Assembly (NCBI GenBank): GCA_029834535.1
Contig: JAQMWT010000192.1
Location: 1-64,000 of the forward strand
Length of the DNA: 64,000 nucleotides
Direction: 5' to 3'
DNA from: Chrysophaeum taylorii
Taxonomy: Eukaryota; Sar; Pelagophyceae; Pelagomonadales; Pelagomonadaceae
Below, piece after piece: positions 1-64,000 of the stretch. The notes under the pieces are model-generated. The model saw only the letters and a list, made by a program, of their open reading frames with translations, was not told the DNA's origin and ran no database searches. A program made the position numbers and the translations under genes. Position 1 is the stretch's first letter. Every line of letters starts with the position of its first letter.

Positions 1-617
1 TCAAGAGGGCCGGTGTTATATTTACGTGCAACGAGGATCCATCTTTCTCTGGCTTGATAATCTCCACACAGATAGCATGGAAATCGGTCACATATATCCA
101 CCGTATAGTGCATCGTTGAGAAGATGAGATTAGCAACTCGTATATGATCTTCATACGATGCGGAGTGTGGTGGTGTCAATTCCATGAAAAGAACAAGCGG
201 CTTTAAGAGCTCAAGTACACTTAGAGCACTTGGAAACAAGGAATCATCCATATCGCGCTCGAAGGTGGAAATGGATCTCCCATTGATTATGCTGCGATTT
301 GTGCATGGTGATGTCAATTCCACTATGTCAGTGTAATATCGTGCACGTTCAACGTCCGATGCTCGATGGAGATATGTCAAAAACTTAGGTAGGGATGGGA
401 AAACTTCGATGGAATTACCAAAACGTCTTCGTAGCATGTGCGTGATATTGTCGTCGCCCTCAACACGAACTTTAACGTTGATGTTGATTTGCAAGTCATT
501 AGAAGCGCAAGCCAAGAATGCAGGAGTGGACATCCCAGAGCAAAGTATAGTTACTGTAGTTATTCGTGGGCTAGGAGATGAAGTTACTGTATGGAGCAAG
601 CGTGTGGTAACCTTGTG
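1..617 (-). CDS. C5-cytosine methyltransferase domain of element A, partial
   Basis: The open frame follows the UGA at 618-620 directly in the same frame as the Gag-protease ORF, with no ATG before the first conserved motif. Visible C5-MTase motifs are: motif I (LLCSG/ILCSGMSTPAF type), an acidic residue after strand 2 (VEGDD), motif IV LTSPCT with the catalytic-type Cys, motif VI as FMELTPP in place of ENVPP, and motif VIII CGDYQAREKW (QxRxR-like). The C-terminal target-recognition part and motifs IX-X lie outside the window but are seen in element C. The family transfers methyl groups from SAM to cytosine in DNA. Inference: the enzyme acts on retroelement or host DNA. Activity is untested. 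Confidence 0.75.
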
Positions 618-620
618 TCA
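618..620 (-). other. In-frame UGA between Gag-PR and methyltransferase (A)
   Basis: The codon string is CCC GTA TGA CAC AAG GTT, and both sides are in one frame. The base after the stop is C, the weakest known +4 context for UGA. The equivalent UGA-C occurs in elements B (10790-10792) and C (26040-26042) in otherwise different sequence. Readthrough is inferred, not shown. Confidence 0.6.
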
Positions 621-3240
621 TACGGGAGGTGGGAAATGCTTGCGTATGTAAGGCAGCTGCGAATGCATTGACTCCAGGATGGTTTTAAGCCACGGGACGT
701 AAATTGCGCGTTCCATGAGGGTGGAATATAGTTTAAGCATTTCGCGTTGTTCGTTAAAGGCACATAGTCTGAACTGTAGTGAGCGAAGTTCCATTTTACG
801 CGCTTTTGCTTGTTGTAGCGAGTAAATTGGTAGAGTTGGTAACAGGTTACTGAGTCTAAACAAAGTAATCTTAACATTGTCGTCAATTTTGCTCTGGATA
901 GATGATTGTCCTTTAAATTCAACTCCATATAGATGTATACCTAGTTTATCTTCTCCCCATTGAGTCATACTGATGATGTGCAGATCGGGATCGTTATGGT
1001 CGTCTTGCTTGGGTAGAAAAAGCGCAACGTCTAGCTTTACATATCCCACATTTGGATGCTTTGGGAGAGCGGGAATGACGGTCCTTATAATCATAGCATG
1101 TGTGATTCTCTGCGTATCCGTAGCAGTCTGGATAGCAGGTGATAAGGACTCGGGTAGCTTTACGATGTGAATAGGATCAGCATAACGTTTAAAGTTGATT
1201 ACATGTTGAGAAGCACATGTGTTAGCATATCCTGGCGTAGTCATTAGCGGCAAATTGTACTCGTTGTACAGTTTAAGCATTGTTGCATAACAGGCATGCG
1301 CTGAGCTTTGACCAAACACGTACTGTGTCATGTAACTTTGCGTTTGTTCGGAAGGCACAACGACGAGTGTAAAACCAGTGTTTAATTTTGGTAGCAACAC
1401 AGGGGGGTCTGTGCCATCATCATTATCTTCATTGGGTAGATTATTGGAGAGCTCAGAGTGCGAGGAAGTTTCCCGAGCTTGACGGCGAACGATAGCATTC
1501 TGAGCTTTAATATTTATGTGCTGCAATAGCGGCTGAGGGATGTTATCAACTTCATCATCTTTAATGGACAGAAAAGTGTGCAACATTTTCTCTGTATCAG
1601 CAGTCCCCATCTGCTCCGCATCACTGGGGGACGCTTCAGGAGCAGATATTTCAGTTTGATACTTTTCTTCTGAAACAAGAGATTCCTTATCGGCTTCTAA
1701 GAGTTTCGATATGGTATTGGACATAGTATCAACTCGAGATAAGTAGAGATGAACTTGGGTGGCTTCGTCAGGATCTAAGGACTGTGTCGAAGCTTGAGAA
1801 GCGGTTGTCCAGAGGGTACTCAATAAGCTTTTCATTTCCTCCTGTACCATTTTAGAGTCGGTAGAAGGGCTGGGATTCGCTTCCTGTAATTTACCAAACA
1901 GGTGGCGAAGACGATCAACTTGATAAGTAGCCCGGTCCATAAGAGACATATTAGAGCGTGCATTACGGTTAGAGGAAGATGAGTAGACAGGACGATCGAA
2001 GCTGGTACCTTTGACATTATAATTTGAGGGTGGACGATAGTACGATGTGTCACGAGGTAAAATTGTCGATGCTTTATCTTTTGCATTACGAAGCTTACGA
2101 GCGTTGAAGCCAGACTGTCCAGCTACGGTGGCTAACAAAGAGTAAGCGTTGTTTAGAGAGTCGTGGGATTGATGAATAGTATCCATCAATAATACTTTAG
2201 GTGGCTTGGTAGCGGTAGTACCAGGGATGTAAGGGACCCAGGAAGCGGGTTTATCCAAGCGTCGGTTAGAGGAAAACCTTGTTTCATTGTATATCTTTAA
2301 CAAGAATTCCAATAGTGGACAAACGTCGTTAGGATCAACTAGCTTTAACAATTCGGGATCGTAACTCGAGTTGTTACCAGAGCGTGTCTCGTAGAGTTTA
2401 TACCATTCCAATAAAGATTGAGAATAGCGCTCGTGATCGGAGGGATTAGCATATAGACGGCAGATCTCCTCGTGAGCTTTAAGAGTAATTATGGAGTTAT
2501 TGAATTGGATTGATGCTTCATCATTATTTAATTGCTTTGCCTGAGATTGGAAGGCAAGGAGTTGCTCGACAAATACATAGGCATACCAATTAACATTTAA
2601 AGACATTCGATTAAACTGAGATTTAAGCTCAGTAACATCTGCACATGACACTGTCTCATAGAAATGGTAAGCGAAAAGCACTACTGCACGTAGTTTATTA
2701 GGATGTGGAGTAATTGCACAAATCTTCTTTAATTGAGGCCACATAGCGAGTGCGGGTTTTTCTTGTGACTCGAAGTTAAAGAATGCGTACAAGAAACCAG
2801 CATAAGTTTCGCAGTGTTTGATCCAGTCGGCATTAGAGAGACCTGTAAAGGATATGTTAGTTAAAGATGAATCATACACAATTTATTTAGGGAATCGGGT
2901 ATCTAATAAAGTAAGGACACGTTTGACATCCTCATTTAATTCGGGACGAACGAGATTGTACGACTCTTGGTAGTAAAGTCGTTCAAGTTTATTACGGACA
3001 TCAACTGATAGTTGATGCGACGAGTTGACGTGCCAGGTCTTTAAATGTTCGGGCAGGGCCTCTTCATTAATGCAGATGTAATTCGTTAATTTTCTCGGAT
3101 ATCCGTCTTGAAAAGATGGCATCTACTTCGTTATCAAGGATTTGATTGTATTCCGGAGCATTCCGGATATTGGTATTTTGTAGGAGAAGTATCGTGACTG
3201 ATCAAGGTAGGTTAGAGGATTGATACACAGATTCGACACA
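618..3240 (-). pseudogene. Gag-protease ORF of element A, disrupted
   Basis: The largest open part (618-2879, about 750 codons) aligns along its length with ORF1 of element B and with both ends of ORF1 of C. The N-terminal two thirds are Gag-like: helical, with a WYKLYETRS block, an arginine-rich stretch and an acidic linker. The C-terminal part corresponds to the copia protease and its tail (VGYVKLDVALFLP, then HIISMTQW). The DSGA-type active site is not recognisable here, whereas element B reads FDSCAT at the same place. A TAA at 2880-2882 replaces the Met seen in C (YPKMIIYD versus FPK-stop-IVYD), and a one-base frameshift near 3070 separates the start of Gag (near 3240-3130). It is a decayed copy. 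Confidence 0.75.
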
Positions 3241-3657
3241 TAAGAATGAAGGGTTTCTCAAGTGCGTGGGTTCTATGTACAGTACGCTATTTTAAACGTG
3301 GGCTTATTTACAAGACCAAACAAATCAGCATGCTATTTAAACAGGATGACTTGAGACTGAAGAATGGATTAATTCTCGAGCAGTCAGTCTTTTTTTGGGG
3401 GATGGGGGAAAAACCCGTACAAGTTCCCGCGGCTTGTATAGGAAAAATTTTAATTTTATTGGTTATGCGAGTGCGTATGACCAGTGACCGACCCAACTCG
3501 GTCACAAACCGAATTAACTGGCGGGCACATACCGTCACATAACAAATATGTACAGTAGACCACCGCCAAACACATTGTCGCATTGTACTCGTGATCAGGC
3601 GTAAATTGATCACTCCATTTAAACGTACAACACAGTTGGACTGACACACCTACGCAT
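3241..3657 (-). other. Element A leader between PBS and Gag
   Basis: This AT-rich stretch has no convincing ORF. It corresponds to the roughly 500-nt leader of element C (27460-27971) and shares blocks with it, such as the CGACCCAACTCG segment near 3490 (3489-3500) and 27810. Confidence 0.6.
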
Positions 3658-6348: not shown

Positions 6349-7182
6349 CTGCCTGGTTGTTGGCGTCCACGACGGTCCGCTGCTTGCGGTCGATGCTGCC
6401 ACTTTCTTCTAATGATGCCTCGATGTCGCGTACGGGATCATCCACCAAGTCCACGAAGTCACCAGCGCCCCGACACTCTTGGTCTTCTTCGTCGTCAGCG
6501 GTCCCGCGTCAACTCCACTCAATCTCGCAAACTCACCGAGCGGCCTGAACATGTCCACGCCGGCCGCAGCCATTTGATCGAAGTCGACATCGACTGCGTC
6601 ACAATGGCGACTCCCCAGCGTCGGCGGCAAGTAGAATTTCCGCAGCAAGGGCTGCGCCCTGGCGCCAAGTGTTCGGCACGGAGACCATGGTCACATCGAC
6701 ACGCGAGCGGCCCACTTCGTACTCTGGGCACTGCGCCATCGCGCGACCAAGCGTAAGCGCGCCGTCAGTACCACTCATCGCCTCCTAACGACCGAAATCG
6801 CTTCGAAATCGGACAAAAAAAAATTGTAATGTAAAAACTTGAATCTGGCCCTAGCGGGGGCACTTACCTACCTGCGTGGTGTCGTGGACTGCTTTTTTTT
6901 CTGCCCCTTGCCTTTGGTTGAAAAACTAGCCCTCTCGAAGAGGGGCTCGTTTGCCGAAGCTCTTCGGGTGATTAATGCGCGCGAAACCGTAGTCGCCAGC
7001 TCAGTATATCAGTACATTGCATACTAAACGGATCGCAAAAAACGGGAAGTTCAATGTGCGTCACGTCTGTGTGTGTGTGTGTGTCTCCTGTCAGTCTGCC
7101 GTATGTTCTTTTTAGTTCAAACAGAAAGAAAGAAAGAAAAGAAAGGAAAAAAAAAAGATAAAGAAAAAAGATAAGCCGTAAG
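6349..7182. other. Intergenic DNA with simple repeats next to element B
   Basis: No gene is supported. A 31-bp block at about 6907-6937 (CTTTGGTTGAAAAACTAGCC...) recurs inverted near 41780-41810. A (GT)n run lies at 7068-7083. The stretch 7120-7180 is purine-rich, and its end (GATAAAGAAAAAAGATAAGC at 7157) recurs near 47637, suggesting that element B landed in a dispersed repeat. Confidence 0.6.
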
Positions 7183-7497
7183 TGCAGAGAAATCTGCTGC
7201 CTCTTACCCTTATCCGTCCGTCGAGAACGTGATCTCTTCCTTACCCTTCATCTTCCTTTCTACACAATCAAATAGTCCTCTGATTTGTGCCTGCGCTCAT
7301 CATCATGGTCTAGCGCACCCCGAGGTATGTAGCACTATACACTTCACCTTTCTCGTGTAGTTCTAGATGCCGCCTGTCGTGTTCTGAGGATATAGGGGAC
7401 ATACCTTTTAGTTCCCCGAATTAAATACTTCCAGACGTTCATGATGAGACGGGATGGTTTCCCAGGTGACTTACCACTGCTTGCTAAATGCTCTGCA
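7183..7497 (+). repeat. 5' LTR of element B
   Basis: The LTR begins TGCAGAGAAATC and ends AAATGCTCTGCA, so the ends form the inverted pair TGCAGAG/CTCTGCA with canonical TG...CA. The 315 bp match the LTRs at 16129-16442 and 16484-16794 closely over the first 150 bp. The same first 150 bp are shared with the longer LTR of element C. The PBS follows directly. Confidence 0.85.
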
Positions 7498-7511
7498 GGT
7501 TATGGGCCCAG
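7498..7511 (+). promoter_or_regulatory. Primer-binding site, initiator tRNA-Met anticodon type (B)
   Basis: The sequence is GGTTATGGGCCCAG, a perfect complement of the anticodon arm of initiator tRNA-Met, immediately after the LTR end. Confidence 0.9.
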
Positions 7512-8017
7512 GCGGGTCCCTGAGAAATCATGTGTCAACATGCACGTAACCTATGGGTTTTGGACTGTTACCGCGCCGGTCCAGCCTCGACATGTGGACA
7601 CGCTTGTCAATATAACGCCATTACCATTGGGCTATATATAGCATACTTTGCACACGTTATCGTGTAACCTTGTGTGCACCTGTTCATAGTATCGTATTGT
7701 CATGTCAATGTTGATGTGTGTGTAAGTTGGCTAACCTGCACTCTTGCACACATGTTATGGAATATTTTGGGTACGTCCACTCTTACATTCCATGGCAATG
7801 CACCTAACAAGCTCATTGAGAGCACCAAAACTAACCAGCTGCCTGAGTGACTACGCTTAGCGACACTACTCTGGACTCACAGCTTGCACAGTCGTCAAAT
7901 AGACATCTTTCCATCGAAAAACGATGAGTGTACATAGACACCGATAGACAGACCCCTTTAGAATGTCTAGACAGTGTCAACTGCGTGACTGAACCCACAG
8001 GTTCCCCGTCAAGTGCT

Positions 8018-10792
8018 ATGGGAGAACACGCAGCACGAGCCGGACCCAAGGCGATCACAGATGCGGATGTATTGAAGCTCGAAGCTCCCGTAGTTGAGTT
8101 TCTTAACGAGGGAAATCGATTTCAGCTTCAGACCCGCAAGGTATCCTTGCAAATTAAGCATATCAAACAATTATTACGGTCCAGTCATGCCGATGCCTTC
8201 CTCGAGTACGACTCGTACGAAGCATATACTCGGTCATGCAAGGACTACGGGATCCTCCGGAATCAAATTCTCGATCGCTTTTTCCTGGAATGGAAGACCG
8301 ATAGAGCTGCTGATCTCCGTTTAGCTGTTGATGAATTGCCCCCCGAGTATCAGGAATGGCATTTCACTAACGAAGCTTTCCCCCACTTACCTGATGCAGA
8401 AGTAGCTCAGCTAGCTACTGTCTGTTACGACTATGAAGTCAAGGCATTACGTCCTGAAATCAATGCCCGTTTCTTAGAAGAGGAACGAATCTTAAATCGC
8501 GCGCACCCGAAGGCATTAGCTTTCGACACCCGTGTTCGTGCCCCTGTTACTATGTTTTCGTTAACTGCGGCTGACTGGCACACTTATCAGAACACGTATG
8601 CTACATTCTTGCATACTTACTTCAATCTCGAAAGTGTTGGAAAACCAGCACTTGCGGCCTAGCCCGCCATCAATGAGGTATGTAACAAAAGTTATTTACC
8701 CAACAAGGCTCGAGCCATTATGCTCATCGCCTTTAGTCACTACGAGTCTGTTACGACTACTGATGAGTCCTATTTGAAACAGCAATTTAACTCTGTTTTT
8801 TATAATCCTAACTGGTATGTCCATGTATTTATCGAAGCTGCCCTAGCATTTAGGCAAGTCTCTTACCAACTTAAACAGGAAGAGACTGACCTTCAATTCG
8901 ACTTTGGCACTCTTTGTAGCAAAATCTATGAAGAGATACATCGGCATTATGCCGATAATACCAGCAACAATCGTTACGATCGTGGTTGGGTAGATTTGTG
9001 TTATATGTATGAAACCCGATCTTCATCTCGGCTTGTGCCAGAAGCTGAACGATTGTGTCACCCTACCAACCCCAGCTACATTTTAGAATACGCATTAGAC
9101 TTATACAATGTAGTATCAAATGGGTCGAACAAAAGACGCTTAGAACGCCCTGTTTCTTGGCAACCCTATGTCGAAGGTTTATCATCTCAACCAAAGCCAA
9201 AGTTACTACTTACAAACACTCTGGATTCAGCAGACAAAAGTCTGACTCAAACTGCTAAAAAACTCGCCTTCATCACTTCGTCCCAACCTGGTACATCTCC
9301 CACGTTTAATGCTAGACGCCTGCGTAACTCTAATGATGCTCGCCAGCCTTTCTCTCGCAGCGATCTATCGTATTATCGTTCTGGTGATTCTTACGTCGCC
9401 AAGAAAACTGCTGGACAGTGCCATGACCGTCCAATTTACCCCCGCACTTTTGACAGGTCCTCTCGGTCTAACATGAAATTATTAGATCGAACAAATCACA
9501 CCTTAAACACCCTGCGAGAACAGTGTAGTGAACTTACGAAGCATGTGACAGATAATGATACCACGGCTCAGCTACAACAGAATATCAACAAGTTATTTGA
9601 GACTCTATTACAATCAGCTGACATTCTGTCAACGACATATACGGAGGACAACAGTAGTTTACTTCGTCTAAACGAACAGCTCATATTTGCAGAAGACATC
9701 ATTTATGATGTAGACGTTCATCTATCCTCGACCGAAAAGTCATTAAACTACGTGGAGCCACAACACCATACTGTTGTTACTGCTCCCACCCCAAAGGCAA
9801 CTCCTCCTACTACAAACACACAGGGTAATCCTTCCAATACTGTGCCTAACCTCTTTACCGCTTCCGCCATCTCGGCTTTACCACCAGCGTTATTGTCCTC
9901 GCTATCTTCACAGGTCCAATCTGCCCTCAACCTACCATCACAAGCCGAAACCAAAAGGGATGCCGATCATACTTCGCTATCGTCATTTGATGAAAAGCAC
10001 GGCATGGCTGATGAGGCTGACGAACCATCACCACCTGTTCAACCGATCATTATTCCAACGAATCTGTTATTGCTGGAGAACTTCTTCACAGCCAGCCTCT
10101 CCACTACTTGCCCACATTCGGAAAACGCCTTCCTCACCAACTACATGAAGGTAAACAGTGTCCCTCCACATTGCTCTTTTCTATATTTTGACTCTTGTGC
10201 TACCATCTCATTGATGTCCACTTGCGATTTTGCAATACCCAATCATATAATTCCACTGGACTCCAAATACGCGCCGATTGTTATTCAGACGGGTACAGGA
10301 CAACAACGTGCTTCACACATGATGTTAACACGTAACATTGTTGTTACCCTACCAGATCATCCACAAGCTGGCTATGTTAAGATCGACTTCGCGTTATGTC
10401 TTCAGCCAATGCATGACCGACATCTCGCTATCCTGAGCATGCTCGAGTGGAACCAGACGAACCTGACCACTGTGTTCAATGATCGAGCTGAGCCAAAGCT
10501 CAGCGCTGTCACGAGCCGCATAGACAAAGATGTACGTATACCCATACACTATGTCGCAGCTAATTTACCCATTCTCCCTTGTATCACTTACAACATCGCG
10601 CGCGACAAGCGGCTGGAACTTTGCTCCCTTGCATTTCCCCTCAAGCGATACCATGAAAACAGGGAGCTACTGGCATACTACAATTACCTACTCCAACGAG
10701 TTTTACCAGATCGGCCGTGGATTCGCCCTTTGGTTCTCAATCTTCGGAAACAGAACAAATTTGTTCAGCTAAATACGCAGCCATTAAGTTGA
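8018..10792 (+). pseudogene. Gag-protease ORF of element B, one nonsense codon
   Basis: I start at ATG 8018 because the protein then aligns with the Met start of Gag in element C (both reach a LNEG-RFQ motif at the same distance). The frame is open to 10792 except for TAG at 8660-8662, where B' has TGG (AAWPAINEV), a single-base nonsense change. Gag covers residues about 1-650. The protease follows with FDSCATISLM (10187 on), a retropepsin DSGA-type site with Cys for Gly, and then a copia-like tail ending AILSMLEW. About 924 codons in total. It would make the virus-like particle and process the polyprotein. Confidence 0.8.
10790..10792 (+). other. In-frame UGA between Gag-PR and methyltransferase (B)
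   Basis: The context is AGT TGA CTA CTC. UGA followed by CUA is the best-known readthrough hexamer in eukaryotic and viral mRNAs. The methyltransferase frame continues without a break. In B' the TGACTACTCGC string is conserved, but one base is missing just upstream. Confidence 0.65.
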
Positions 10793-11925
10793 CTACTCGC
10801 ACGCCCAGTGTTTCTCTCGCAAGAGTCCAATCTCCGCAAACCCTCTGTCATGTTACTTTGTTCTGGTTTGTCAACTCCGGCGTTCCTGTCTCAAGCCACT
10901 AATGACTTAGGCTTAAATATCAATGTAAAAGTTGTTGTTGAGTCTGATGATACGCTTGTTCGTATGTTACGCCACCGTTTTCCTACTGTACTATTATTTG
11001 AATCTCTCCCCTTTATTAACCATCTTCACCTAATCTCACCAGAGGAAAGGCGCACATTCTATTGTGATATAATTGAGATCACTCCTCCTGCACAACAGGA
11101 ATTTACTAAAACAGCAAAAGACAGAAGACTTACACAGCCTGCTGGACGATTTCTTTTCGACAGCATGCTGTCTGTCATCAAGCTACTCCAGCCCTTGGTA
11201 CTACTGGCTGAGATGACGCCTCCGCATAAGTACTGTCATCAAGACCACATCACAGTGGCCAACCTTATCCATACTACACTTGATTACTGTGTCGATGTTG
11301 TTGATAGGTTCCCGACCTACCTCTGTGGCGACTACCAATCTAGAGAAAGATGGATATGCATCGCACGCAGATTCTACTGGACCAATTAAACTATCATCGT
11401 GGCCCATCCTCCATCCACGCCCCTTCCTAAAGATCGTGGATGATCTACAAGCTTTCCCAAGCGCCTTTGGCTACCTAACCACTAACCAAAGACTGGATCG
11501 GGTGTTCCCGATCCTCCATACATATCCATTCCTAAAACGTTTGCACCTACTCGCACAGGTTCTGCTCAGCTTACTATGGCTGACCTTGAATCCCAAATAT
11601 GTACTACTTCGCCTTCACTCACAACAGGCTCACGACGTACTCACTCTTGTTCAATCCGAGTGTACTTATCATCAGTTGTGCTTTAAACGCTCCTCTATGG
11701 AGCCATTACCCAATGCAACACATCCTATACACGTCAAGATTTTTACAGTCCTCTATAACGTGTTTGCAAGCTTACATACTAACTCACCCACTCCTGTGTC
11801 CTATTACATAACCGTTTTCGAAACTAACCAACCGTCACACAGGTTATACTTCAACCTCATCAACATCACATAACTCCTACTTCTTAACTGGTGGCCTTGT
11901 AGGTAAGGCAGCCAGTCATCACGAA
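10793..11925 (+). pseudogene. C5-methyltransferase of element B, decayed
   Basis: The frame is open in phase with Gag-PR to 11389. Motif I is LLCSGLSTPAFL, followed by an acidic position (VVESDD). Motif VI is LLAEMTPP and motif VIII is CGDYQSRERW. The motif IV position reads ITPPAQ, so the catalytic Cys is absent in this frame; B' still encodes TPPCT there, which points to a one-base deletion in B. After 11390 the frame breaks, but homology to element C continues (FETNQPSHR, 11813 on) up to the junction near 11925. The gene is inactive as it stands. Confidence 0.7.
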
Positions 11926-12870
11926 ACGCATCTGGACAACAGGTTTGTATGGCGGTGCCATAGGTGGTAGCGGAGCCAACTTGGGGAAAGGCTTGGACTA
12001 TCCACAAGTAACCCACAAACGGCTCCAGATAAATGGACCTGTCCCGGTCGCGGGGGATGTCGGAAGCATTGAACGTATACGTGTTCCCAAAGGCGTTGAT
12101 GGGGGTCTTTTGCGAGGAAGTAAGGTGCAAACGTTTAAGGAACGGATATGTATGGAGGATCAGAACACGGATCCAGTCTTTGGATAGTGGTTAGGTAGCC
12201 AAAGGCGCTTGGGAATAGCTTGTAGGTCATCCACGTATTTAGGAAGGGGCGTGGATGGAGGATGGCGCCACGATGATAGTTTAATTGGTCAGTAGAGTAT
12301 CTGCGTGCGACGCATATCCACCTTTCTCTAGATTGATCGCCACTGGTAGGTCAGGAACCTATCAACAACATCGACACAGTAATCAAGGGTAGTATAAATA
12401 AGGTTGTACTGTGATGTGGTCTTGATGACAGTACTTATGGAGGCGTCATCTCAGCCAGTAGTACCAAGGGCTGGAGTAGCTTGATGACAAGACAGCATGC
12501 TGTCGAAATCGTCAACCGGAGCTGTGTAAGTCTTCTGACTTTTGCTGTTTAGTAAATTCCTGTTGTGCAGGGAGGAGTGATCTCAATTATATCGCAATAG
12601 AATGAGCGCCTTTCCTCTGGTGAGATTAGGTGAATGGTTGATAAGGCGGGAGAGATTCAAATAATAGTACAGTGGAAAACGGTGGCGTAACATACGAACA
12701 AGCTGTCATCAGACTCAACAACAACTTTTACATTGATATTTAAGCCTAAGTCATTAGTGGCTTGAGACAGGAACGCCGGGTTGACAAACCAGAACAAAGT
12801 CACATGACAGAGGGTTTGCGGAGATTGGACTCTTGTGAGAGAAACACTGGGCGTGCGAGTAGTCAGCTTG
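11926..12870 (-). pseudogene. C5-methyltransferase remnant of element B'
   Basis: Several frames carry recognisable pieces: motif I near 12770-12800, motif IV as TPPCT near 12565 with the Cys retained, and a downstream segment 11926-12130 equivalent to the region after motif VIII in element C (NTYTF, EPFVGYLWIVQAF). Frameshifts and an internal deletion near 12125 make it non-functional. Confidence 0.6.
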
Positions 12871-15607
12871 TGGCTGCGTATTTTGCTGAACAAATTTGTT
12901 CTGTTTCCGAAGATTGAGAACCAAGGGCGAATCCACGGCCGATCTGGTAAAACTCGTTGAGTAGGTAATTGTGGTATGCCAGTAGATCCCTGTTTTCATG
13001 GTATCGCTTGAGGGGAAATGCAAGGGGGCGAAGTTCCAGCCGCTTGTCGCGCGATGTTGTAAGTGAGACAAGGGAGAGCGGGTAAATTAGCTGCGACATA
13101 GTGTATGGGTATACGTACATCTTTGTCTATGCGGCTCGTGACAGCGCTGAGCTTTGGCTCAGCTCGATCGCTGAACACAGTGGTCAGGTTCGTCTGGTTC
13201 CACTCGAGCATGCTCAGGATAGCGAGATGTCGGTCATGCACTGGCTGAAGACATAAAGCGAAGTCGATCTTAACATAGCCAACTTGTGGATGATCTGGTA
13301 GGGGAACAACAATGTTACGTGTTAACATCATGTGTGAGGCACGTTGCTGTCCTGTAATGCGTCTGAATAACAATCGGCGCGTATTTGGAGTCCAGTGGAA
13401 TTATATGATTGGGTATTGCAAAATCGTAAGTGGACATCAATGAGATGGTAGCACAAGAGCAAATATAGAAAAGGCAATGTGGAGGGACACTGTTTACCTT
13501 CATGTAGTTGGTGAGGAAGGCGTTTTCGAATGTGGGCAAGTAGTGGAGAGGCTGGCTGTGAAGAAGTTCTCCAGCAATAACAGATTCGTTGAATAATGAT
13601 CGGTTGAACAGGTGGTGATGGTTCGTCAGCCTCATCAGCCATGCCGTGCTTTTCATCAAATGACGATAGCGAAGTATGATCGGCATCCCTTTTGGTTTCG
13701 GCTTGTGATGGTAGGTTGAGGGCAGATTGGACCTGTGAAGATAGCGAGGACAATAACGCTGGTGGTAAAGCCGAGATGGCGGAAGCGGTAAAAAGGTTAG
13801 GCAGTATTGGAAGGATTACCCTGTGTGTTTGTAGTAGGGGGAGTTGCCTTTGGGGTGGGAGCAGTAACAACAGTATGGTGTTGTGGCTCCACGTAGTTTA
13901 ACGACTCTTCGGTCGAGGATAGATGAACGTCTACATCATAAATGATGTCTTCTGCAAACATGAGCTGTTCGTTTAGACAAAGTAAACTACTGTTATCCTC
14001 AGTAGATGTCGTTGACAGAATGTCAGCTGATTGTAATAGAGTCTCAAATAACTTGTTGATATTCTGTTGTAGCAAGCGTGGTATCATTATCTGTCACAGC
14101 TTCGTAAGTTCATACACTGTTCTCGCAGTGTGTTGTAGGTGTGATTTGTTGATCTAATAATTTCATGTTAGACCGATGGACCTGTCGGGCGGGGCAACCG
14201 GGACGGTCATGGGACTGTCGCAGCAGTTTTCTTGGTGACGTCAGAATCACCAGAACGATAATACGATAAATCGCTGCGAGAGAAAGGCTGGCGACCATCA
14301 TTAGGTTACGCAAGCGTCTAGCATTGTGGAAGATGTACCAGGTTGGGACGGTGATGAAGGCGAGGTGTTAGCAGTTTGAGTCAGACTTTTGTCTGCTAAG
14401 TCCAAGTGTTTGTAAGTAGTAACTTTGGCTTTGGTTGAGATGTAAACCTTCGACATAGGGTTGCCAAGAAACAGGGCGTTCTAAGCGTCTTTTGTTCGAC
14501 CCATTTGATACTACATTATATAAGTCTAATGCGTATTCTAAAATGTAGCTAGGGTTGGTAGGGTGACACAATCGTTCAGCTTCTGGCACAGGCCGAGATG
14601 AAGATCGGGTTTCATACATATAACACCAATCTACCCAACCACGATCGTAACGATTGTTGCTGGTATTATCGGCATAATGCCGATGTATCTCTTCATAGAT
14701 TTTTCTACAAAGAGTACCAAAGTCGAATTGAAGGTCAGTCTCTTCCTGGTTAAGTTGGTAAGAGATTTGCCTAAATGCTAGGACAGCTTCGATAAATACA
14801 TGGACATACCAGTTAGGATTATAAACAACAGAGTTAAACTGCTGTTTCAAGTAGGACACATCAGTAGTCGTAACAGACTCGTAGTGACTAAAGGCAATGA
14901 GCATAATGGCTCGAGCCTTGTTGGGTAAATAACTTTTGTTATATACCTCATTGATGGCGGGCCAGGCCGCAAGTGCTGGTTTTCCAACACTTTCAAGATT
15001 GAAGTAAGTATGCAAGAATGTAGCATACGTGTTCTGATAAGTGTGCCAGTCAGCAGCAGTTAACGAAAACATGGTAACAGGGGCACGAACACGGGTGTCG
15101 AAAGCTAATGCCTTCGGGTGCGCGCGATTTAAGATTCGTTCCTCTTCTAAGAAACGAAGATTGATTTCAGGGCGTAATGCCTTGACTTCATTGTCGTAAC
15201 AGACAGTAGCTAGCTGAGCTACTTCTGCATCAGGTAAGTGGGGGGAAAGTTTCGTTGGTGAAATGCCATTCCTGATACTCAGGGGGCAATTCATCAACAG
15301 CTAAACGGAGATCAGCAGCCCTATCGGTCTTCCATTCCAGGAAAACGCGATCGAGAATTTGATTCCGGAGGATCTCGTAGTCCTTGCATGACCGAGTATA
15401 TGCTTCGTACGAGTCGTACTCGAGGAAGGCATCGGCATGACTGGACCGTAATAATTGCTTAATGTGTTTAATTTGCAAGGATACCTTGCGGGTCTGAAGC
15501 TGAAATCGATTTCCTTCGTTAAGAAACTCAACTACAGGAGCTTCGAGCTTCAATATATCCGCACCTGTGATCGCCTTGGGTGCGGCTCGTGCTGCGTGTT
15601 CTGCCAT
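12871..15607 (-). pseudogene. Gag-protease ORF of element B', frameshifted
   Basis: Gag starts at the ATG with first base 15607 (MAEHAARA), matching the start in B. It is open in pieces 15230-15697, 14368-15297, 13797-14087, 13315-13870 and 12863-13373, separated by small indels. The Trp codon that is a stop in B is intact here. The protease site has lost its Asp (ICSCAT instead of FDSCAT). Confidence 0.75.
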
Positions 15608-16114
15608 AGCAGTTGACGGGGAACCTGTGGGTTCAGTCACGCAGTTGACACTGTCTAGACATTCTAAGGGGGTCTGTCTATCGGTGTCTATGTACACTCA
15701 TTCGTTATCGATGGAAAAATGTCTATTTGACAACTGTGCAAGCTGTGAGTCCAGAGTAGTGTCGCTAAGCGTAGTCACTCATGGCAGCTGGTTATTTTTG
15801 GTGCTCTCAAGGAGCTTGTTAGGTGCATTGCCATGGAATGTACGAGTGGACGTACCCAAAATATTCCACAACATGTGTGCAAGAGTACAGGTTAGCCAAC
15901 TTACACACACATCAACATTGACATGACAATACGATACTATGAACTGGTGCACACAAGGATACACGATCACGTGTGCAAAATATGCTATATACAGCCCAAT
16001 GGTAATGGCGTTATATTGACAAGCGTGTCTGCGTGGCGAGGCTGGACCGGCGCGGTAACAGTCCAAAACCCATAGGTTACGTGCACGCAGACACATGGTT
16101 TCTCAGGGACCCGC

Positions 16115-16128
16115 CTGGGCTTATAACC
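16115..16128 (-). promoter_or_regulatory. Primer-binding site of B', two changes
   Basis: Read on the minus strand it is GGTTATAAGCCCAG, the initiator-tRNA type with GG changed to AA in the centre. It lies next to the LTR end. Confidence 0.75.
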
Positions 16129-19463: not shown

Positions 19464-19756
19464 TTACGAAGCAAAGTCGAGAAAGTTTCATGAATGTACT
19501 TGTCGGTCTCTGAAGACGGCTCTCCTGTGAGGAAGCTATGACACTTACCCCTGCACCACATCCCCATTTCAGTTCTCACATGGCAGCAGGTGTTCTCCAC
19601 GAAGTCAAGCAGAGGACTTAGGTCTTCCTCCCCCTTTGTTTAGCTAACACCCTTGTTGATCCTCATGCACACGTTTATTACTCTGCTTCCGAAGAACTGT
19701 CGCAATATTCCGACCTTGACGGATACACTATCACTTCCACCCATCTACGTGAAGCT

Positions 19757-27985: not shown

Positions 27986-27986
27986 T

Positions 27987-46565: not shown

Positions 46566-46572
46566 AAGAAGA

Positions 46573-55300: not shown

Positions 55301-55604
55301 TACTTTATCCCGATATCAATATCACACTATGAATATCCGCATATTATTTGCACGCTCATAGTTTAGCTTCAGCTGCCCCACGCTACACTCAGGACGACAG
55401 CTTCGACACGTATGTGACAGGCAACTATGGCTCTCTCATCTTCCAGGAACAACTCCGCCTTACTCGCTGCCGCTACGACGATTACCTTACCATGTCGAAA
55501 CCGATTCGGTTAAATGGTCTAGAGATAGAAAATTTGATTTAGGGTTAGTACCCCACTATCCTAGGATTAGCTCTTCTATTCTAGCACCTTTTAATTACTA
55601 ACAG

Positions 55605-55709
55605 TGTTATTCACGCCGTGCTGTCCTCGTTGTTAGAGACAGAACGAGGGCAGACTACCACTGCACTCACTCTGGTGAAGGGTAACACAGTTGAAATGAC
55701 TGTTCTCTA
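55605..55709 (+). repeat. LTR end adjoining element G
   Basis: It starts near TGTTATTCACGCC (outer limit uncertain) and ends TGTTCTCTA before the PBS. Confidence 0.55.
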
Positions 55710-55723
55710 GGTTATGGGCCCAG
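55710..55723 (+). promoter_or_regulatory. Primer-binding site, initiator tRNA-Met anticodon type (G)
   Basis: GGTTATGGGCCCAG, a perfect complement of the initiator tRNA-Met anticodon arm, directly after the LTR. Confidence 0.9.
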
Positions 55724-55868
55724 TCCCGGTATCAGCAGAGTATCAGGATTTCCACTCGAGTTCCGCCCCCCGACGCTCCTGAACCAAAACAAGAAGACGC
55801 CGACAAATCAAGAAATCCAAAAGGAGATAAAAGATCAAGAGGCAAGGCATCAAAAAGAGATAACCAAC

Positions 55869-57410
55869 ATGCAAGCACAAGCAGCCAACCAACAACAAGA
55901 CATTCAAGACCTTCGCGACATGATGAGGCAAATGCAAGCTACACAAGGAGCAACACCACCTGCTGTCGCCGCTGCGACTGCTCTTCCCACAGTTCAACAA
56001 GACCCCCAAAACAAACCCAACACCTTCAGTGACCCGCCCAGCTCTGTCCTCAAGTCCATGGACGGCGCTCAAGTCACCCGCAAATGCTCTCGTTTCGCGT
56101 TGCGCAGTTGTTCGTTGAACATCTCGTGCCCGAAACCGGTATTACATAATACTTCCTGCAAGGCTTCTAGAGGTGGGAATCCGTCTTACGCTGATCTAAC
56201 GATCTAGCAGACTCTCTCCTAAGCCACTGCAACAAGGAGTACGACAATGACCCCGACACCTATGCCACAGCCGGCAATACTCAAGATTTCCAAGGCCGCT
56301 TCGTCTACTACAAGGGCGTCTACCGCAAGTTCGGCAAACACTTCCTTGAAACAATTTACGAACCAAAACTCCAAGAACTCAAAAGACCAAGACAAAGATG
56401 CGACCGATACAACAAAAGGGAAGTTGTATCCGATCACACAACCACATCTTCAAGAAAAAGAAGCCGACTTCATTGTGTATCTTCGCGAGACCGTACACCC
56501 CCTCTTTCGCCGTTTCCTTCACGCCGGCAGCGACTCCGTCAAGCACCCGGCATACGACGAGATAGATGCACTCGGATCCTCCCATCCGATAGGACTCGAA
56601 TTCGTACTACAAGTCCGTCTCGCACTTGACAAGCACACGGGCCAGAACCACGTCCGTTGTGCGCATTATGTCTTCAATACCTTTCTGGACACGCCGTTCA
56701 ACCCAGAGGTCCATGAACCAGCGCACCAAATAGATTATATGCGCCACGTTCAACAACAGCTCCGTCAAATCACCGACGACCCTTCTCTCCAACTCAGCGA
56801 CAAAACGATACAACAAGAAACCCACAAGATGCTCCGTTTTAAATATCCCCCAAGCTTACTTGACTCGCGCGCCCCAACCCATATCAAAGGTTTTGCACGT
56901 CTTACCAACTGCCTTCGTACCTCCAGCGACTCGCTGTTACTCGACGAAGACAAAGAAGCGATAAACAATTTGCCCAAGCTGATCGCCCGCATCACGGTTA
57001 TCTCCACCTTTGAGCGCAACTTTTGGTCTAACCTCAAGCCTCACCCCACCCTGAATTTCAAACCGTTGCGATTCGTCACTGACTTCGGTCGTCTGCCGAC
57101 CAAAGATAAAGACAATCCACGTTTTCGCTCCCGCCGTCATGGCCTCCACCTCACCGAAGATGATGACGACACCTCCCCCTCTGAAGATGATATCCCTCCA
57201 GATCCTGATGAAGCATCCCCTGAAGACACCGACCCTGTTGCCGTTTTTCTCACGGAAGCCAACCTCGATCCAGATGACGACACCGATCTCATCCAACATC
57301 TTCACGCTTACCGAAAGAAGCAACTCTCCCGCCACCAAAAGAAACCCCCACCGAAAAAGCCTCCCAATCCTCGTTCACCGTCGTACTATAACATCAACGA
57401 CAGGCCTTAA
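55869..57410 (+). pseudogene. Gag of element G, frameshifted
   Basis: It begins with a Gln-rich helix from ATG 55869 (MQAQAANQQQDIQDLRDMMR). A middle block (56180-56390: GRFVYYKGVYRKFGKHFLET) is in another frame. The main part from about 56390 to 57410 contains DFIVYLRETVHPLFRRFLHA, HTGQNHVRCAHYVFNTFLD, an acidic stretch and a Lys/Pro-rich end. No zinc knuckle is visible. By position and composition it is Gag. Confidence 0.55.
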
Positions 57411-57467
57411 CCCAAACCCACCCCTGTCACCCCAACAAGGAACAAACATTCGAAAAACACCACGCCC

Positions 57468-58475
57468 GTGCTTCTCCTGTCCACCCCAGACAAGCGCGAG
57501 CACCCGCACCTCTGCAAGGTCACTTTTCCCACTCAAACGCACCCCCCAAAGCCGTCCACTCCTGATCAACGGGTCAAGGTCCCCCTCGGTGATGTTCGTC
57601 GCAAGCTCCAGACCATCCGGAACCTTAGTCAAGCCGGCCGCCAACACACCTCCAACTCGGAACGCATGACCAAGCTCATCAACCTCATTACCACTATCTC
57701 CGACGAGATACTCCTCTCCGAGGCTGATTCCGACGCCGCCGAGTTTCTTCAGGTGTTATCATCCGATCCCCTGGATGATCCACCCGATGAGGGCGCAGCC
57801 GACGCATGACCAAGGCCACCTCAGTTTTTACGATGATCACGGACAGCTATGCCTTTACGACGATCAAATCCCCGAAATAGAAGATGAAGACGACTGCGCC
57901 GAAAACTACGCACAACGTCACAGCGACTATATGCGTGCTCTACACAAGAGCCAGCTTTTTCGATGACGGTTGACGACGACGCCTGTGCCGCCAACCAAAC
58001 TTTACTAAATCAGGCACCAAGCCTCACGATGAAAAATTTCCCAACATCATCGACACTTTCCCCCAGAGTCGCAGAATTTCTTTGTGCCACTTACACTACA
58101 GGAAAGGCCCCCACAAAAACTAACTCTCTACTCGGATGCAATGGACCCGGCACAGAAGTTTCTTTAATTGACGGTGGCGCATCATTTTGCTTCGCTCGCA
58201 CTATACAACACTTTGTTCCCGAGTCCATACGCAGGATTCCCGAACATACCAGCCGCATGGGCAGAGGCACCTTAACCAGCCATTTCATCGGTGTCAAACC
58301 GCTGTATTTGCAGGCTGCAGGTCTCTCCTAAAAGGATATCAAAGACTCCACGGGCTACGCATTATACTTAGTCTTTTTGGTCGTCCCGGGTTTACAGGTT
58401 ATAGCGACCTCTCAACTGAAAGCTCTGAACGTACAGGCAACAGACCCACCGCTGCCGCACGAACCATACTTGTAT
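57468..58475 (+). pseudogene. Protease region of element G
   Basis: After a linker in changing frames (57468-57966), the frame 57963-58331 holds VSLIDGGASFCFA (58157 on), a retropepsin D-G-A type active site. A TAA at 58329-58331 interrupts it. In the same frame the protease end follows as LVFLVVPGLQVIATSQLKAL, equivalent to the copia LLSVSQL tail. The frame then runs directly into the methyltransferase. Confidence 0.65.
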
Positions 58476-58937
58476 GAACTTCTGAAAAATTCCACTTCAG
58501 ATCCTCACGATTACAAAAAGCTTCTAGGCACGACCGCAGTAGTTCTCGCCAATCGCCAAACCAATGGTCTCTTGTCACTGCTATCCCATCCAAAGCAAAC
58601 ATTCCGCGCTGTGATCAGTTTCCACACCGGAACGAAAATGTCCCTCAAGGATGAACTTGCAAACATAACTCAGAACGTCGCAAAGACGCGCTCACAATCT
58701 CACCTCCTCGATTTCGCCAAACTGCAGAACCATTCTGCATTCCTGACGGACTTAATAGGACTGCCGCGTACTGTCGTCCAATATGCATTCACTGGCACAG
58801 CGGACCTCTCTGTGCAAGCACAGCCCCCTCCGCAACACACATCCATTATGGCAGGTGGACTGCACCAAGAGGGTTTCGCCTCTTTTCGCACACGCTTCGA
58901 CCAACGCATCATTGTCGTTGCCATCTGCGAAATAAAC

Positions 58938-61830
58938 CAGCGTTGGGAATTCACTTCAGCAAGTGAACATGAACCACTTCACCAGCCACGCAATATTGGT
59001 GAAGTGATTTGAAGTGAACACGTCACCCTACGAAGCCATCGTGAGCCTTTGTGAAGTGAACGCCACATTTTTTTTTTAATTTATTGCCAGCGCCGGTCCC
59101 TGCCGCGCCCCGTCAGTTCCGTGCACCCCGCGCGCTATTGCCTAGGTCTGGTGCTCGTAGATTCATTCGCGTTTCGGGGCGAAGGAGGAGTTACCGTGGA
59201 TGGGGTTCAGTGTTTCTTACTTTAGGCGATGTGAACGACCTCTGTATCTTCGTCTGGTTCTTCCTCATCAACCTCCATCTCCGAAGAGTCTTCGGGGATG
59301 GTGCTCTCGGCGTTTTTGAAAAACTCGGTTTCGTGTCCGAGGTCCCTGTACTTAATCCGGGCCGCCGCAATGAATTTCCTGTTCATGCGCAGTGGGGCAA
59401 CTTTGTCCGTCTCGTCCGCGCTGAGCAACGTGTTTCCCTCGGTCAGGACAAGATTTCCAATGCTCAGGCAGCGCTCACAGTAGCTCTGCGCGCCATGTGT
59501 ACCAATTGAACCCTTAGAGGCTCTCGCCATGTGCTGAAGGAGCCCATACTGCTCCTTGGTGAGCGGTCGAAACAGCTTTCCTACGTCGAGCACAGCCAGA
59601 TCTGCGACGCCGACTTCATCCGTCTTCTCAAGTTCAGGATAATGCTCTTTCCAATTGAGCGATCTCGACAGCGTGATCCACTGAGTGAAGACCTGTTCAA
59701 ACTCCACATTGAAATCGGGCATCTGGTTCTCAGGCATAGCAAAAAGAAGGCACGTCGCCACTAATGTCGTCCCAAGCGTCGGATGCGTCGAGTGCCGCCA
59801 AGAGATTGCGGGCAGGCGCAGGCTCGGAGGGCGGCGCAAGCTCGGAGGAAGTCTTTGCCTTTCGTGGTGGAATGCAGTCCGTGCGTAAATCACATATTCT
59901 TGCTTGAGCAACTTCCTGGCCCGAGCTCTCTGATTGGACGACAGGTGCCGGCAGTTGATAGTCCTAAAGTCAAGAAGGAAGGCAATCAGCTCGCGATCGT
60001 TGAATTCGTAGTCGAAGTGACGCACGTAGTTTCATTATTCCCGCAAAAACCAACGCTCACATTCGAGAATAGCCCGCTCAAGACAGATTTGGCCGGTCTC
60101 GCTGAGGTCGTCAACATCGACAGTCTTACGTGGCATGGATTTCGCAGTTATGTTCGGGAGATCAATGACTTCTAGCGTCCCAGCTCGCAGAGACTCGATC
60201 ATGTTGTGCTTGATCAATGCGGTGCACGCCCCCAGGTATAAGTGTTCATGTTGCACGAAAACAACGGCCGCATCCGTTATAGCAAAAATCGCCTCGAATT
60301 CAGCCAACGCCGCCCATTGCTCATCACTGATTGTCCAGGGGAGTCCAATGTTGGTAGCCGCGTACAGTTTGGGCACGTGGTGCATACGCAGCAAGGAACG
60401 AATAAGTTGGTATCGCGCCCGAAACCTCGTCTTATTGATGTCGAGCTAGAGCTTGAGCTTCGGTGATTTCCCCGACTGTAATGGCAAAAGCGCATGCAGA
60501 TCCTTCAAGCGTGTGCCGTAAGAAAAGAACTTGGCTCCATCGTGGGCATTGTTCAGCGGCTCCTGGCCAGCTGGGAATGGATTGATCACCTGCTTGCCTC
60601 TGGATCGTGTCAAGTTGCCACATGCCGCTGCCGAGATTTTTGAGATATCATGCATGTCACTCACGCTTCGACCTCAACAACAAATTCTTCGGCGACGCCA
60701 ATTGCAGCCCGGTCTTGAACAATGGTTGCGCCCGCCAAATCGATATCGATTCCCGCACGCTCCGCGACCACAGAACGGAGCAGAGAAGCCGTGCCGGAAT
60801 CGGTTCCGTCGTCAGCTGGAACGAGGCCCACGCACACCGTCTCAACGCCACTCCAATCGGGCCAGGTGAAGGATAGGCCAATGGCCTGTCGCTTGAACTT
60901 ATCCTTGAGTGTCCGGCCGTCATGCAGCACCTGGCCGAATGGAATGCCGAAAGCCGCTTCATAACACTCCGCAACGACGTGCTTCAAGATTCGAACAAAG
61001 CAACGATATTCAGCGTCCACCCATTCAAACAGCGCCTTTCGAGTCATGAACGGGCACTTGCATTACCTGCCACCGCCGCGGTAATACGCCTCAATTAGGT
61101 TGCGATGATCTTCGTCGTCAAAGGTGCGCTTGGAAATCCGCTGCGACGTGTACACGTAGTGCCGAGCCGAGAACGCCATCAGGGAAGAGTGCTTTGCCTG
61201 GCTGGGCATGGCCATGAAGTATCTCGTAATATCCGATTTACCCTTCGAGGCTGCCACAACGCCCACGGCCGTCATAACGCCCTCCTTTTCTTGGTCTGTC
61301 TTCTGTTTCTTGGTGAGCTGTTGACGTCCCAGCTCGTCCTCCGGATGCGCAGACTTGAAGTGGGCCCCAAGAGGGCTTGGTCGTCTGCCATGTGCCTTTC
61401 TTGAAGTCTCTCGTCACCTTCAGGCGCTCCCAGCACCGGATACACACATGCGTCGCCTTCCCACTGACGGGGCCAGGATGATTTTCTTCCTTCAGTCGAC
61501 GCACGCAGTCCCACACCTTGGACCTGGTTGATCTTCCACTTTTATTGCCGGGTGTGTTCCACGTCACAACATCGACGTCGCAATCGGCTCGTTCTTGTGA
61601 ACTTCCTCCTTCTGTTCCGCGTATTCCTGCTCATCATCAACATTATCCTCCACCTCCAGGTAGCGCGGCTCGACTTCGCTCATCAGACGGGTTCAGGGTC
61701 AGGCCATCAAAAAGCGAAAGTGAATGAACGTGAAGTGAACGTTGGACTTCGGACGGTGTGTGTGAAGTGAAGTGAAGTGGAGCAACTTCAGTGAACCTAG
61801 TGAATTGAGCCCAGTGAATTCCCAACGCTG
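58938..61830. mobile_element. Complete hAT DNA transposon inside the methyltransferase of G
   Basis: Terminal inverted repeats CAGCGTTGGGAATTCACT lie at both ends (58938-58955; reverse at 61813-61830). A perfect 8-bp target duplication AAATAAAC flanks them (58930-58937 and 61831-61838). The element is 2893 bp. Both ends carry many subterminal GTGAAGTGAA copies, typical of hAT transposase-binding sites. The transposase is on the minus strand. Confidence 0.93.
59222..61567 (-). pseudogene. hAT transposase, read in several frames
   Basis: From the N-terminus: a BED-type zinc finger (61238-61567: RSKVWDCVRRL, HVCIRCWERL); a linker (61063-61275: SDITRYFMAMPSQ); a catalytic-domain piece (60661-61047); 60035-60394; and the C-terminal dimerisation part (59222-60025: ARASKGSIGTHGAQSYCERC, NLVLTEGNTLL). 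The end is acidic. The pieces are not in one frame, so there are short introns between them or the gene has decayed. Its job would be cut-and-paste movement of the 58938-61830 element. Confidence 0.65.
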
Positions 61831-63335
61831 AAATAAACCCCATTATGCGCGCCCGCGCGCAGCAACTTTTCCCGCGCGCTCTGCATTATAAGGATCTCAG
61901 AAAGCTCACCGACGCATTGCAAGCCGGCAAAATACGACAACCTAAACTTGACCTGGCTGTTTTTACTTTGCCTTGTCAACACCTGAGCGTAATGAAAGAC
62001 TATGACGGCTATGCCACTCCGGCAACCACCGACCTCTTCGTCAAAGAAATATTCGCTTTGTTCGTTGCACGCTCCCGACATACACCATTGTCGAGAATGT
62101 ACCACCAAACCCGCAAACCCACCACGAGTACGCCCAGGTCGCCAAATGCTATCAAAGCATGGGTTACTTCAGACACTCCGGTGTATACAATGCCTCCGCC
62201 TTTGGCGACGTCATAAGCAAGAACCGCTACCTCGCTGTCTTCGCACGACACCCGCTAAACGGCTACAACCTCGAGAATACCGCTTCTCCCTGGTTAATAT
62301 CTCCTCCGAGCATGGTTCCCCTCCTGGACCCAAGTCACACTATCCCCGACGATCTCAGGATAGCCAACCCCGCTCTTCGCGCCACAGTGACCCGCTCCAC
62401 CTTGGATTACTATCAGGACAACGCCACTTTCTCATATGCACCCGCCAATGCTGCTCAACTCTCGATTTCCGAGAATGCACGCATCTGCCAAATGCTTGCA
62501 CGCTCGAAGAAGCCCTCCACGGATCTAGGACTGGACGCCGACGGCACCCCCTATGCATCGATGACCACCATCCCACATCTCTTGGTATTTATATTGCGCA
62601 CAGTCATTTGTCGCAACACCCTTCGCCGCCCGGAACACACTCCGCTGCTTTCACGCCTCAGAGTCTCAATGTGCTTACTACCTGGATGGAGCCATCTCCG
62701 GCACTGCCGCCACCGCCGTCGCATGTGGCTACTTCCCGCGCGCATCCCTCACCTGGCATTCACGCTCCCCTCGGATATTGGACTGCTCACACCAACCCGC
62801 AGTCTTCTCCCCAACGCACACATTCTCCCTGAATGTTCCCAAAGGCACCGCCTTTCTGGTCGTCGTCTACACCAACTCCTTGGCAGCCGCTCACAGCTGC
62901 TCGCGCCGCATTCACGTGGGTCCACTACATGAATCGCTCGCATCCCGGATGTGCTGCGATCAACTCACAAGGGCGGATAATCCTCGATGACCCTACGGGA
63001 CTCATAATGTCCGAAGCACGTCCCACCTACGCGGACTATGTTGGCCACATCGGCGACACACTCCAGAAAAGCACCAAGTGCTACTCGGTCACTGGCTCGT
63101 ACCCAACCAACACGAGCTACTCCAACGCACTACTGCTGATCTCTCCCGAACACATCCGATACGCGACTCTCAACGAAATCGCAAAGTTTGGACACCACTC
63201 GGACCCGGAACTGCTTCGCTTGTTCCAACAGCATCCGCCGTACTTCGCGTTTAAGACACTTGCCAACGCCGTCCCGCACAACATGTTGCAAGCTAGTAAT
63301 GCGCTGTCCTCACACTCCAAGAATCGCATCACCAC

Positions 63336-64000
63336 TTGAATCTTCACATCGAATGGGCAACCATACGCAACGGCATCCCCAGTCCCGGAGACATCGCTCA
63401 GGTTGCAGAATTCTTCTTGAACATCTCCAGCCGTCTCTTAGCAGTGGAGGACCTCCACCTCACCTCCCTCTTCAATGCTGTTGCAGATGCTCACCATGCT
63501 GCGATCCGTAAGCCACGCAAATCGAAAAACCTCGAGACGCTACTTGCCGAGGCCACAGTTGCTAAAGTCCGAGTGGACAAGCGACCCAGCCCCCCTAGCG
63601 CTTCGACTGCCGCTCTACCCCCCTTGCACAAGCCCGGCACCACTCAGCACGCGAAAAGAGTGCTTTTTGTCACTCGCTGGCACCGCATACACCACCAACA
63701 ACCCGAGATTCTTCGCCGCACGATTGCCGCCAACGTAACGAATCTCCGCCCAGGTGATGATTGATATCTGCAAGAGTGCAGCGAATGCAAGCGCTGTCAA
63801 TCGCATGACAGCTTCAGTCATAAGAACACTTCCTGGTGACAGGATGAACTGGCCTACACTCCTGGCCAACATCTCCACATGGATGTATCCTACCCGAGCA
63901 TCAGTAAATGCTATGGTGGATTCCGCTACATAAAGCACTTCGCGTGTGTTATTTCGGCATACAAATGGGTATACTTCCTGAGGAAACTGGACGCGCAGGA
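63336..64000 (+). pseudogene. Pre-integrase and integrase start of element G
   Basis: 63336-63764 encodes a helical linker ending NVTNLRPGDD. After a stop the same region reads LQECSECKRCQSHDSF (zinc-binding HHCC remnant) and HMDVSYPSISKCYGGFRYIK, which matches the first core Asp block of copia integrases. The rest is beyond the window. It fixes the order protease-methyltransferase-integrase in G. Confidence 0.65.

Follow-up and report, generated by a model that had tools for sequence, protein, structure and literature searches.

The window analysed here, the first 64,000 nucleotides of contig JAQMWT010000192.1, contains copia retrotransposons (A, B, B′, C and G) that each carry a domain resembling C5-cytosine methyltransferases (MTases; Table 1). 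The initial annotation, made from the window alone, had described two copia lineages with the MTase between protease and integrase. Searching the genome (70.8 Mb in 697 contigs) showed that both lineages carry the domain and that three MTase-copia families exist: 1A, of which C is a divergent relative, 1B (B/B′) and 2 (G). Within the window, the MTase copies of A, B, B′, C and G are all broken or cut off. That of G begins at about 58773 and is interrupted by a hAT-like insertion; in Pfam, the open reading frame (ORF) of this insertion at 59222–60031 matches no transposase. The copies B and B′ are inverted relative to each other (7182–16442) and meet near 11.9–12.1 kb, both being truncated in the MTase, either through a rearrangement or through an assembly join.

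Table 1. Copia elements of the window and their parts (ORF, open reading frame; MTase, methyltransferase domain; L numbers, loci elsewhere in the genome)
Feature	Position	Strand	Basis or remark
Element A, family 1A copia, cut by window start	1..3513	-	81-91% DNA identity to L030/L031
A, MTase motifs I-VIII (SPCT, ELTPP, CGDYQARER), continues beyond window	3..617	-	sequence
A, in-frame TGA ahead of MTase (TGA CAC)	618..620	-	
A, gag and protease-region ORF	621..2882	-	protease assigned by position only
Element B, family 1B copia, truncated within MTase	7182..11870	+	316-nt repeat shared with L017, L029
B, ORF with protease-like FDSCAT	8663-10792	+	by eye
B, in-frame TGA then CTA, ahead of MTase	10790..10792	+	sequence
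B, MTase pieces, several frames	10793..11870	+	similarity to window C; DNA
Element B′, inverted copy of B, truncated within MTase	12000..16442, inner end approximate	-	inverted repeats I1-I8; DNA
Element C, diverged family 1 copia, interrupted	18140..28300, outer end approximate	-	about 69% DNA identity to 1A
C, reverse transcriptase piece (SVDD)	20752..21555	-	translation; DNA match to L029-L031
C, integrase piece	23064..23852	-	PF25597 E 4.9e-4, below cut-off; DNA match
C, MTase C-terminal half (target-recognition region, motif X SNAIP)	24353..25330	-	at least 123 places genome-wide
C, MTase motifs I-VIII	25284..26039	-	at least 150 places genome-wide; fold; profile comparison
C, in-frame TGA (TGA CGC) ahead of MTase	26040..26042	-	
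C, gag/protease-region ORF	26043..27203	-	
Element G, family 2 copia, 5′ part: gag, protease region, MTase start	55520..58937	+	91% DNA identity to L017
hAT-like insertion splitting G	58938..61830	+	8-bp target duplication AAATAAAC, 17-bp inverted ends
G, remainder of MTase, several frames (ENVPP, FGD, NAVP)	61831..63297	+	PF00145 below cut-off
G, start of pre-integrase/integrase region	63300..64000	+	match to integrase side of L019; DNA match

Taking the scored loci of 1A (150), 1B (144) and family 2 (80), the genome contains at least about 370 copies, though the haploid copy number may be lower because some contigs resemble duplicates (C10/C297, C25/C521). The N-terminal half of the 1A MTase occurs at 150 or more places (best 150 of 905 candidates scored) and its C-terminal half at 123 or more (best 123 of 1035). 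For 1B, the C-terminal half occurs at a minimum of 149 places (best 144 of 1046), and the family 2 domain at a minimum of 90 (best 80 of 770). Many of these copies are fragments or bear stops. What revealed family 1B was a 1.5-kb segment of contig C42 with an open frame of 500 amino acids (aa) that leads from the C-terminal half of the MTase to within the integrase. The C5-MTase profile PF00145 gave at least 57 genome matches (best 123 of 474 candidates scored), including one DNMT2 and one DNMT5-like protein. As for the remaining 55, comparison with the matches listed puts 33 on or next to family 2 places and 17 at DNA-level family 2 places; 2 more belong to family 2, and 3 (C193, C114 and C573) have no family assignment. 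A tandem pair of units of about 1 kb, at 45543–47565 of the window, resembles, at about 89–90%, sequence next to the family 2 element of L020.

The genome-wide search for intact copies suggested by the initial annotation yielded open relatives in which the MTase is part of Pol. A single ORF of 1952 aa (L019) contains PF00145, a weak integrase (rve) match and the copia reverse transcriptase (RT) profile RVT_2, and a second, of 1868 aa (L020), contains PF00145 and RVT_2. At 1A loci, one ORF spans the MTase into the integrase (L031:2478-5027) and another spans the MTase C-terminal half, the integrase and the RT (L030:4172-9331). The relative P0002 (2396 aa) has RVT_2 by Pfam and, by eye, combines a DSGAT protease, MTase, integrase and RT in one ORF. 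RVT_2 scored E 1e-27 to 5e-43 in the scanned 1A and family 2 ORFs that reach the RT. The integrase upstream of it gave rve matches of E 0.0009–0.067, below the cut-off yet correctly placed (0.067 in the family 1B ORF of C42), and PF25597 reached 43.1 bits in L030 (cut-off 27). No Pfam protease match was found in the ORFs scanned; protease-like motifs were seen by eye as DSGAT (P0002), DGGAS (L019) and DSCAT (B), and none was recognised in 1A. A scan of seven 10-kb stretches revealed no clear pair of long terminal repeats; a 316-nt repeat (7182–7497 in B) stands at the ends of B/B′ and is also found in L017 and L029.

Spacing between RT and MTase was analysed in the best 150 of 1670 RVT_2 candidates. 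The 1A MTase lies 2.8–5.2 kb upstream, on the same strand, in 33 of the 49 RTs of one class and in none of the others (0/91 and 0/10), and the 1B MTase lies 2.1–4.4 kb upstream in 48/91 and 6/10 RTs of two other classes. An upstream MTase was thus present for 87 of the 150 RT matches, compared to about 2.7 expected from density; for the remaining 63, there was none among the matches listed. ORFs and RT spacing together confirm that the MTase domain read in A, B/B′, C and G belongs to the elements genome-wide.

We next consider whether the domain is a C5-cytosine MTase. Family 2 passes PF00145 (34.7 bits, cut-off 22), the match in G itself falling below the cut-off, while a Pfam scan found no C5-MTase match in the MTase pieces of A, C, B and B′. 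Family 1 has other support: profile comparison links the C MTase to C5-MTases (E 2.4e-6), and 46 of the 50 PDB rows listed for the low-confidence predicted fold of 25284–26039 are C5-MTases. The transcript relative P0003 passes PF00145 at 41.8 bits and matches plasmid C5-MTases at 24–27% identity, and the relative P0001 scores 20.2 bits. Against the PDB, P0001 matched mostly designed ankyrin proteins, with one C5-MTase at E 0.49, and P0002 gave no matches. Searches of IMG/VR (25 pattern matches), phage records and GTDB genomes (19 pattern matches) yielded no confirmed relative. The profile comparison, P0003 and the low-confidence fold place family 1 among the C5-MTases.

The motif IV Cys is present in 14/14 open 1A ORFs, as Pro-Cys in 13 (L038 has RC), and in 10/10 family 2 ORFs; the motif VI Glu is likewise found in all 14 and all 10. 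In family 1B, motif IV is known only as DNA of B′, where the Cys codon is retained. Loss of the catalytic cysteine in B was considered and rejected, the codon being present in B′. Of the motifs originally read for the first lineage (SPCT, EMTPP or ELTPP, CGDYQxRxR and SNAIP), SPCT and ELTPP are seen in A and SNAIP in C, and QxRxR appears in family 1 as CGDYQARER. For the second lineage, the orthodox motifs originally read are found as PCQ and ENV in 10/10 open ORFs and as NAVP in G; QxRxR is partly lost in family 2. Motif VI reads ENV in family 2, EMT in family 1 and ELT in window A. Such departures (EMT in place of ENV in family 1, QxRxR lost in family 2 and motif I rewritten) could mean that the domain is now non-catalytic, or an RNA-directed S-adenosylmethionine-domain protein, serving as a nucleic-acid-binding or structural part of Pol. 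We regard this as rather unlikely, as the catalytic Cys and the motif VI Glu are kept in the open copies counted and also in P0001, P0002 and P0003.

The ratio of nonsynonymous to synonymous change (dN/dS) is low. Among sequences picked for being open, its median is 0.072 for the 1A MTase (90 of 91 pairs, range 0.02–0.184, 14 sequences) and 0.173 for that of family 2 (28 pairs, range 0.105–0.605, 8 of 10 sequences aligned), where rows L018 and L020 contain divergent stretches. The start of the domain is conserved as well: in 19 of the 21 family 1 copies examined, the MTase ORF begins directly after an in-frame TGA-C. This set consisted of 18 of the 20 fetched 1A loci (within L030–L048, with L029 and L033 outside the set) and A, B and C of the window; the two exceptions, L042 and L045, have a frame that stays open further upstream but in a different register. 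The stop context of B and B′ is TGA CTA, a strong readthrough context. Readthrough of the conserved TGA-C is probably how family 1 produces Pol. Family 2 has an ATG that overlaps the TGA stop of gag (TGATGG), with the pol frame confirmed in L019 (4134–4138), and CTTTTTC precedes TGATGG in 13 of the 14 loci found by pattern, 5 of the 19 sources scanned being without a match. This overlap suggests that Pol of family 2 is made by reinitiation or frameshifting.

To the question of the initial annotation, one ancient capture or two, our results favour one. Of the 19 rows in our tree, ten came from the elements or their relatives (1A, C, family 2 and P0001–P0003), seven were bacterial or phage C5-MTases, and the last two were DNMT2 and the DNMT5-like protein; family 1B was left out, and phage loci L058 and L059 were unused. 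The ten element and relative MTases form one clade (support 97/97), and DNMT2 and the DNMT5-like protein are long branches. P0002 is nearer to family 2 than to family 1 in RT (45 vs 32–33%), integrase (28 vs 21–22%) and MTase (30.5 vs 23%). Element MTases also have in common a PP that follows motif VI and an extra stretch separating motif I from motif II. Since RT, integrase and MTase are congruent and the MTases form one clade, a single old capture by a copia ancestor is probable. Window B and window C MTases are 46% identical. The MTases of families 1 and 2 share only 17–18% identity, and their direct profile match is not significant (E 0.34, from shallow alignments of near-identical rows), as might be expected if two copia lineages had independently captured related C5-MTases at the same position. 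Given the shared clade, the shared PP and extra stretch, and the agreement of the three domains, we consider two captures highly improbable. A wider tree, with DNMT1, DNMT3, DNMT4 and DNMT6 added, could change this result.

Outside the elements, the window contains an open frame of 1724 aa for a CHD-type chromatin remodeller (29985–35159, GC 0.67). The cellular PF00145 matches of the genome are DNMT2 and a DNMT5-like protein, encoded at L010 5468-10000 with a C5-MTase domain followed by SNF2. No further cellular C5-MTase was detected among the best 123 of 474 PF00145 candidates scored, in which an intron-split gene could be missed. DNMT5-like enzymes maintain methylation rather than start it. 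The copia MTases might thus be the only source of de novo cytosine methylation in this genome, so that retrotransposons would write the methylome and the host would copy it, although we think this very unlikely. As for the host itself, psaA and psaB lie on a 103.6-kb contig, the closest PDB chains to psaB are 9ygv and 9m4f, followed by 7y7b, and one of 84 light-harvesting matches, when tested, was nearest to VCPI, FCP and PCPI chains. The psaB and light-harvesting matches thus point to an alga with a red-derived chlorophyll-c plastid, presumably an ochrophyte or haptophyte. The earlier suggestion of a host other than a dinoflagellate or charophyte is therefore sustained for charophytes, and a dinoflagellate is unlikely, the 60 psaB rows listed including none from peridinin entries 8jjr, 8jw0 or 8jze.

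Self-methylation had been proposed as a role of the domain, and we looked for its traces. CpG observed/expected ratios are 0.85–1.02 in family 1 loci, 1.02–1.09 in family 2 loci and 1.26–1.46 in four host-gene loci, and TpG/CpA ratios are 1.09–1.20 in elements vs 0.70–0.90 in host-gene loci. This contrast mildly points to CG loss in elements. GC content is 0.41–0.54 in elements and 0.60–0.63 in host-gene loci, and base composition may account for the CpG difference, given how much higher GC is in the host loci. Relative to other C, C-to-T change at CG is 0.94–1.28 across nine comparisons for family 2, while the two for family 1 gave 1.37 and 1.44. Inside the MTase domain, the proportion of changed sites is higher at CG than at CHH (0.219 vs 0.152 in family 1, 0.134 vs 0.100 in family 2); counted by carriers, there is no CG excess (0.394 vs 0.415 and 0.171 vs 0.166). 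Any excess of change at CG is thus no more than mild and does not resemble the trace expected from CG methylation that was dense for a long time. Lasting self-methylation at CG is not supported by a clear footprint in these data, although mild signs in its favour exist. The pattern is compatible with transient methylation, another sequence context, efficient repair or no methylation.

These data bear on heritable self-methylation, in which the MTase would methylate CG in cDNA and the host DNMT5-like enzyme would keep the mark, silencing new copies and limiting harm to the host. The presence of the DNMT5-like protein, in which an MTase is joined to SNF2, the lower CpG and higher TpG/CpA of the elements and the two family 1 C-to-T values agree with it, as does the de novo CG methylation produced in yeast by two SymbioDIRS DNA methyltransferases (DNMTs) according to the accessible text of PMC5890265. 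Conversely, element CpG is near 1 and undepleted, GC-rich host loci may explain the difference, and C-to-T change at CG is about that at other C in the nine family 2 comparisons. Heritable self-methylation is in our view doubtful.

We lean towards a captured C5-MTase that was kept as a Pol subunit and acts transiently on cDNA or at the target; as a proposal on function drawn from sequence, transient action fits best. A copia ancestor would have captured one C5-MTase and kept it ahead of the integrase, retaining it while copia split into 1A, 1B, 2 and relatives in other species. In family 1, Pol, with the MTase first, would arise from leaky reading of the conserved TGA-C after gag-protease, and in family 2 Pol would follow the gag stop overlapping ATG. 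Packed in the particle with RT and integrase, the MTase may modify cytosines of the new cDNA, or act with integrase at the target, in one short step. The copy would be marked or protected without dense, lasting CG methylation of the integrated element. Several observations weigh against this proposal: no family 1 piece reaches the PF00145 cut-off, EMT or ELT replaces ENV at motif VI in family 1, QxRxR is reduced to its last R in family 2 and P0002, and no strong CG deamination footprint was found in the CpG ratios or C-to-T comparisons. In addition, RNA structure after the TGA gave no signal in 4/5 folds (z -0.15 to 0.39), window C having z -2.62.

In the literature searched, mostly without subscription papers, no copia element with a C5-MTase was reported, apart from one sentence. 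In the parts available to us, PMC5890265 describes DNMTs in Symbiodinium long interspersed nuclear elements (LINEs) and DIRS elements and in Klebsormidium nitens Gypsy elements, as well as Symbiodinium Copia elements without any DNMT, and PMC6338049 names Ty3/Gypsy and DIRS. The sentence in question, in the accessible text of PMC12344493, puts DNMT3 in "LTR Copia and DIRS", citing the 2018 paper, which says Gypsy. The accessible portions of PMC9998398, PMC3145265, PMC12477816 and PMC12730594 mention no such element. The copia form of a retrotransposon DNMT thus looks new relative to this literature. Copia would become the fourth class of retrotransposon, next to LINE, DIRS and Gypsy, with a cytosine methyltransferase of its own. 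If the host assignment is true, a third algal lineage would join those with mobile DNA carrying one. Because a single old capture was apparently kept through three families and across species, the role of the domain is open to comparative study, and because the host is simple (about 71 Mb, few detected DNMTs), why a transposon would methylate DNA should be directly measurable.

Compared to C5-MTases in general (PF00145), the element domains have the same motif order (I, IV with PC, VI with E, VIII, X) and a predicted Rossmann-type fold. They differ by the extra stretch after motif I, by E[N/M/L][V/T]PP at motif VI, by the partial loss of QxRxR in family 2 and by a long C-terminal half (about 300 residues). 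The order of integrase and RT, with a putative protease before them, is that of Ty1/copia (RVT_2), from which the elements depart by an inserted MTase of about 530–560 codons ahead of the integrase and by what looks like TGA readthrough, or a stop-start overlap, in front of Pol. As far as the accessible text of de Mendoza et al. (2018, PMC5890265) goes, SymbioLINE-Dnmt, SymbioDIRS-Dnmt3 and KnitGypsy-Dnmt3 likewise have a C5-MTase in a retrotransposon polyprotein or ORF, many copies, and low MTase Ka/Ks values (mostly <0.2). Those systems carry Dnmt3 or Symbiodinium-only DNMTs, whereas here the element is a copia with an RVT_2 reverse transcriptase, its MTase lies between protease and integrase, and its clade was compared with bacterial and phage C5-MTases, DNMT2 and a DNMT5-like protein.

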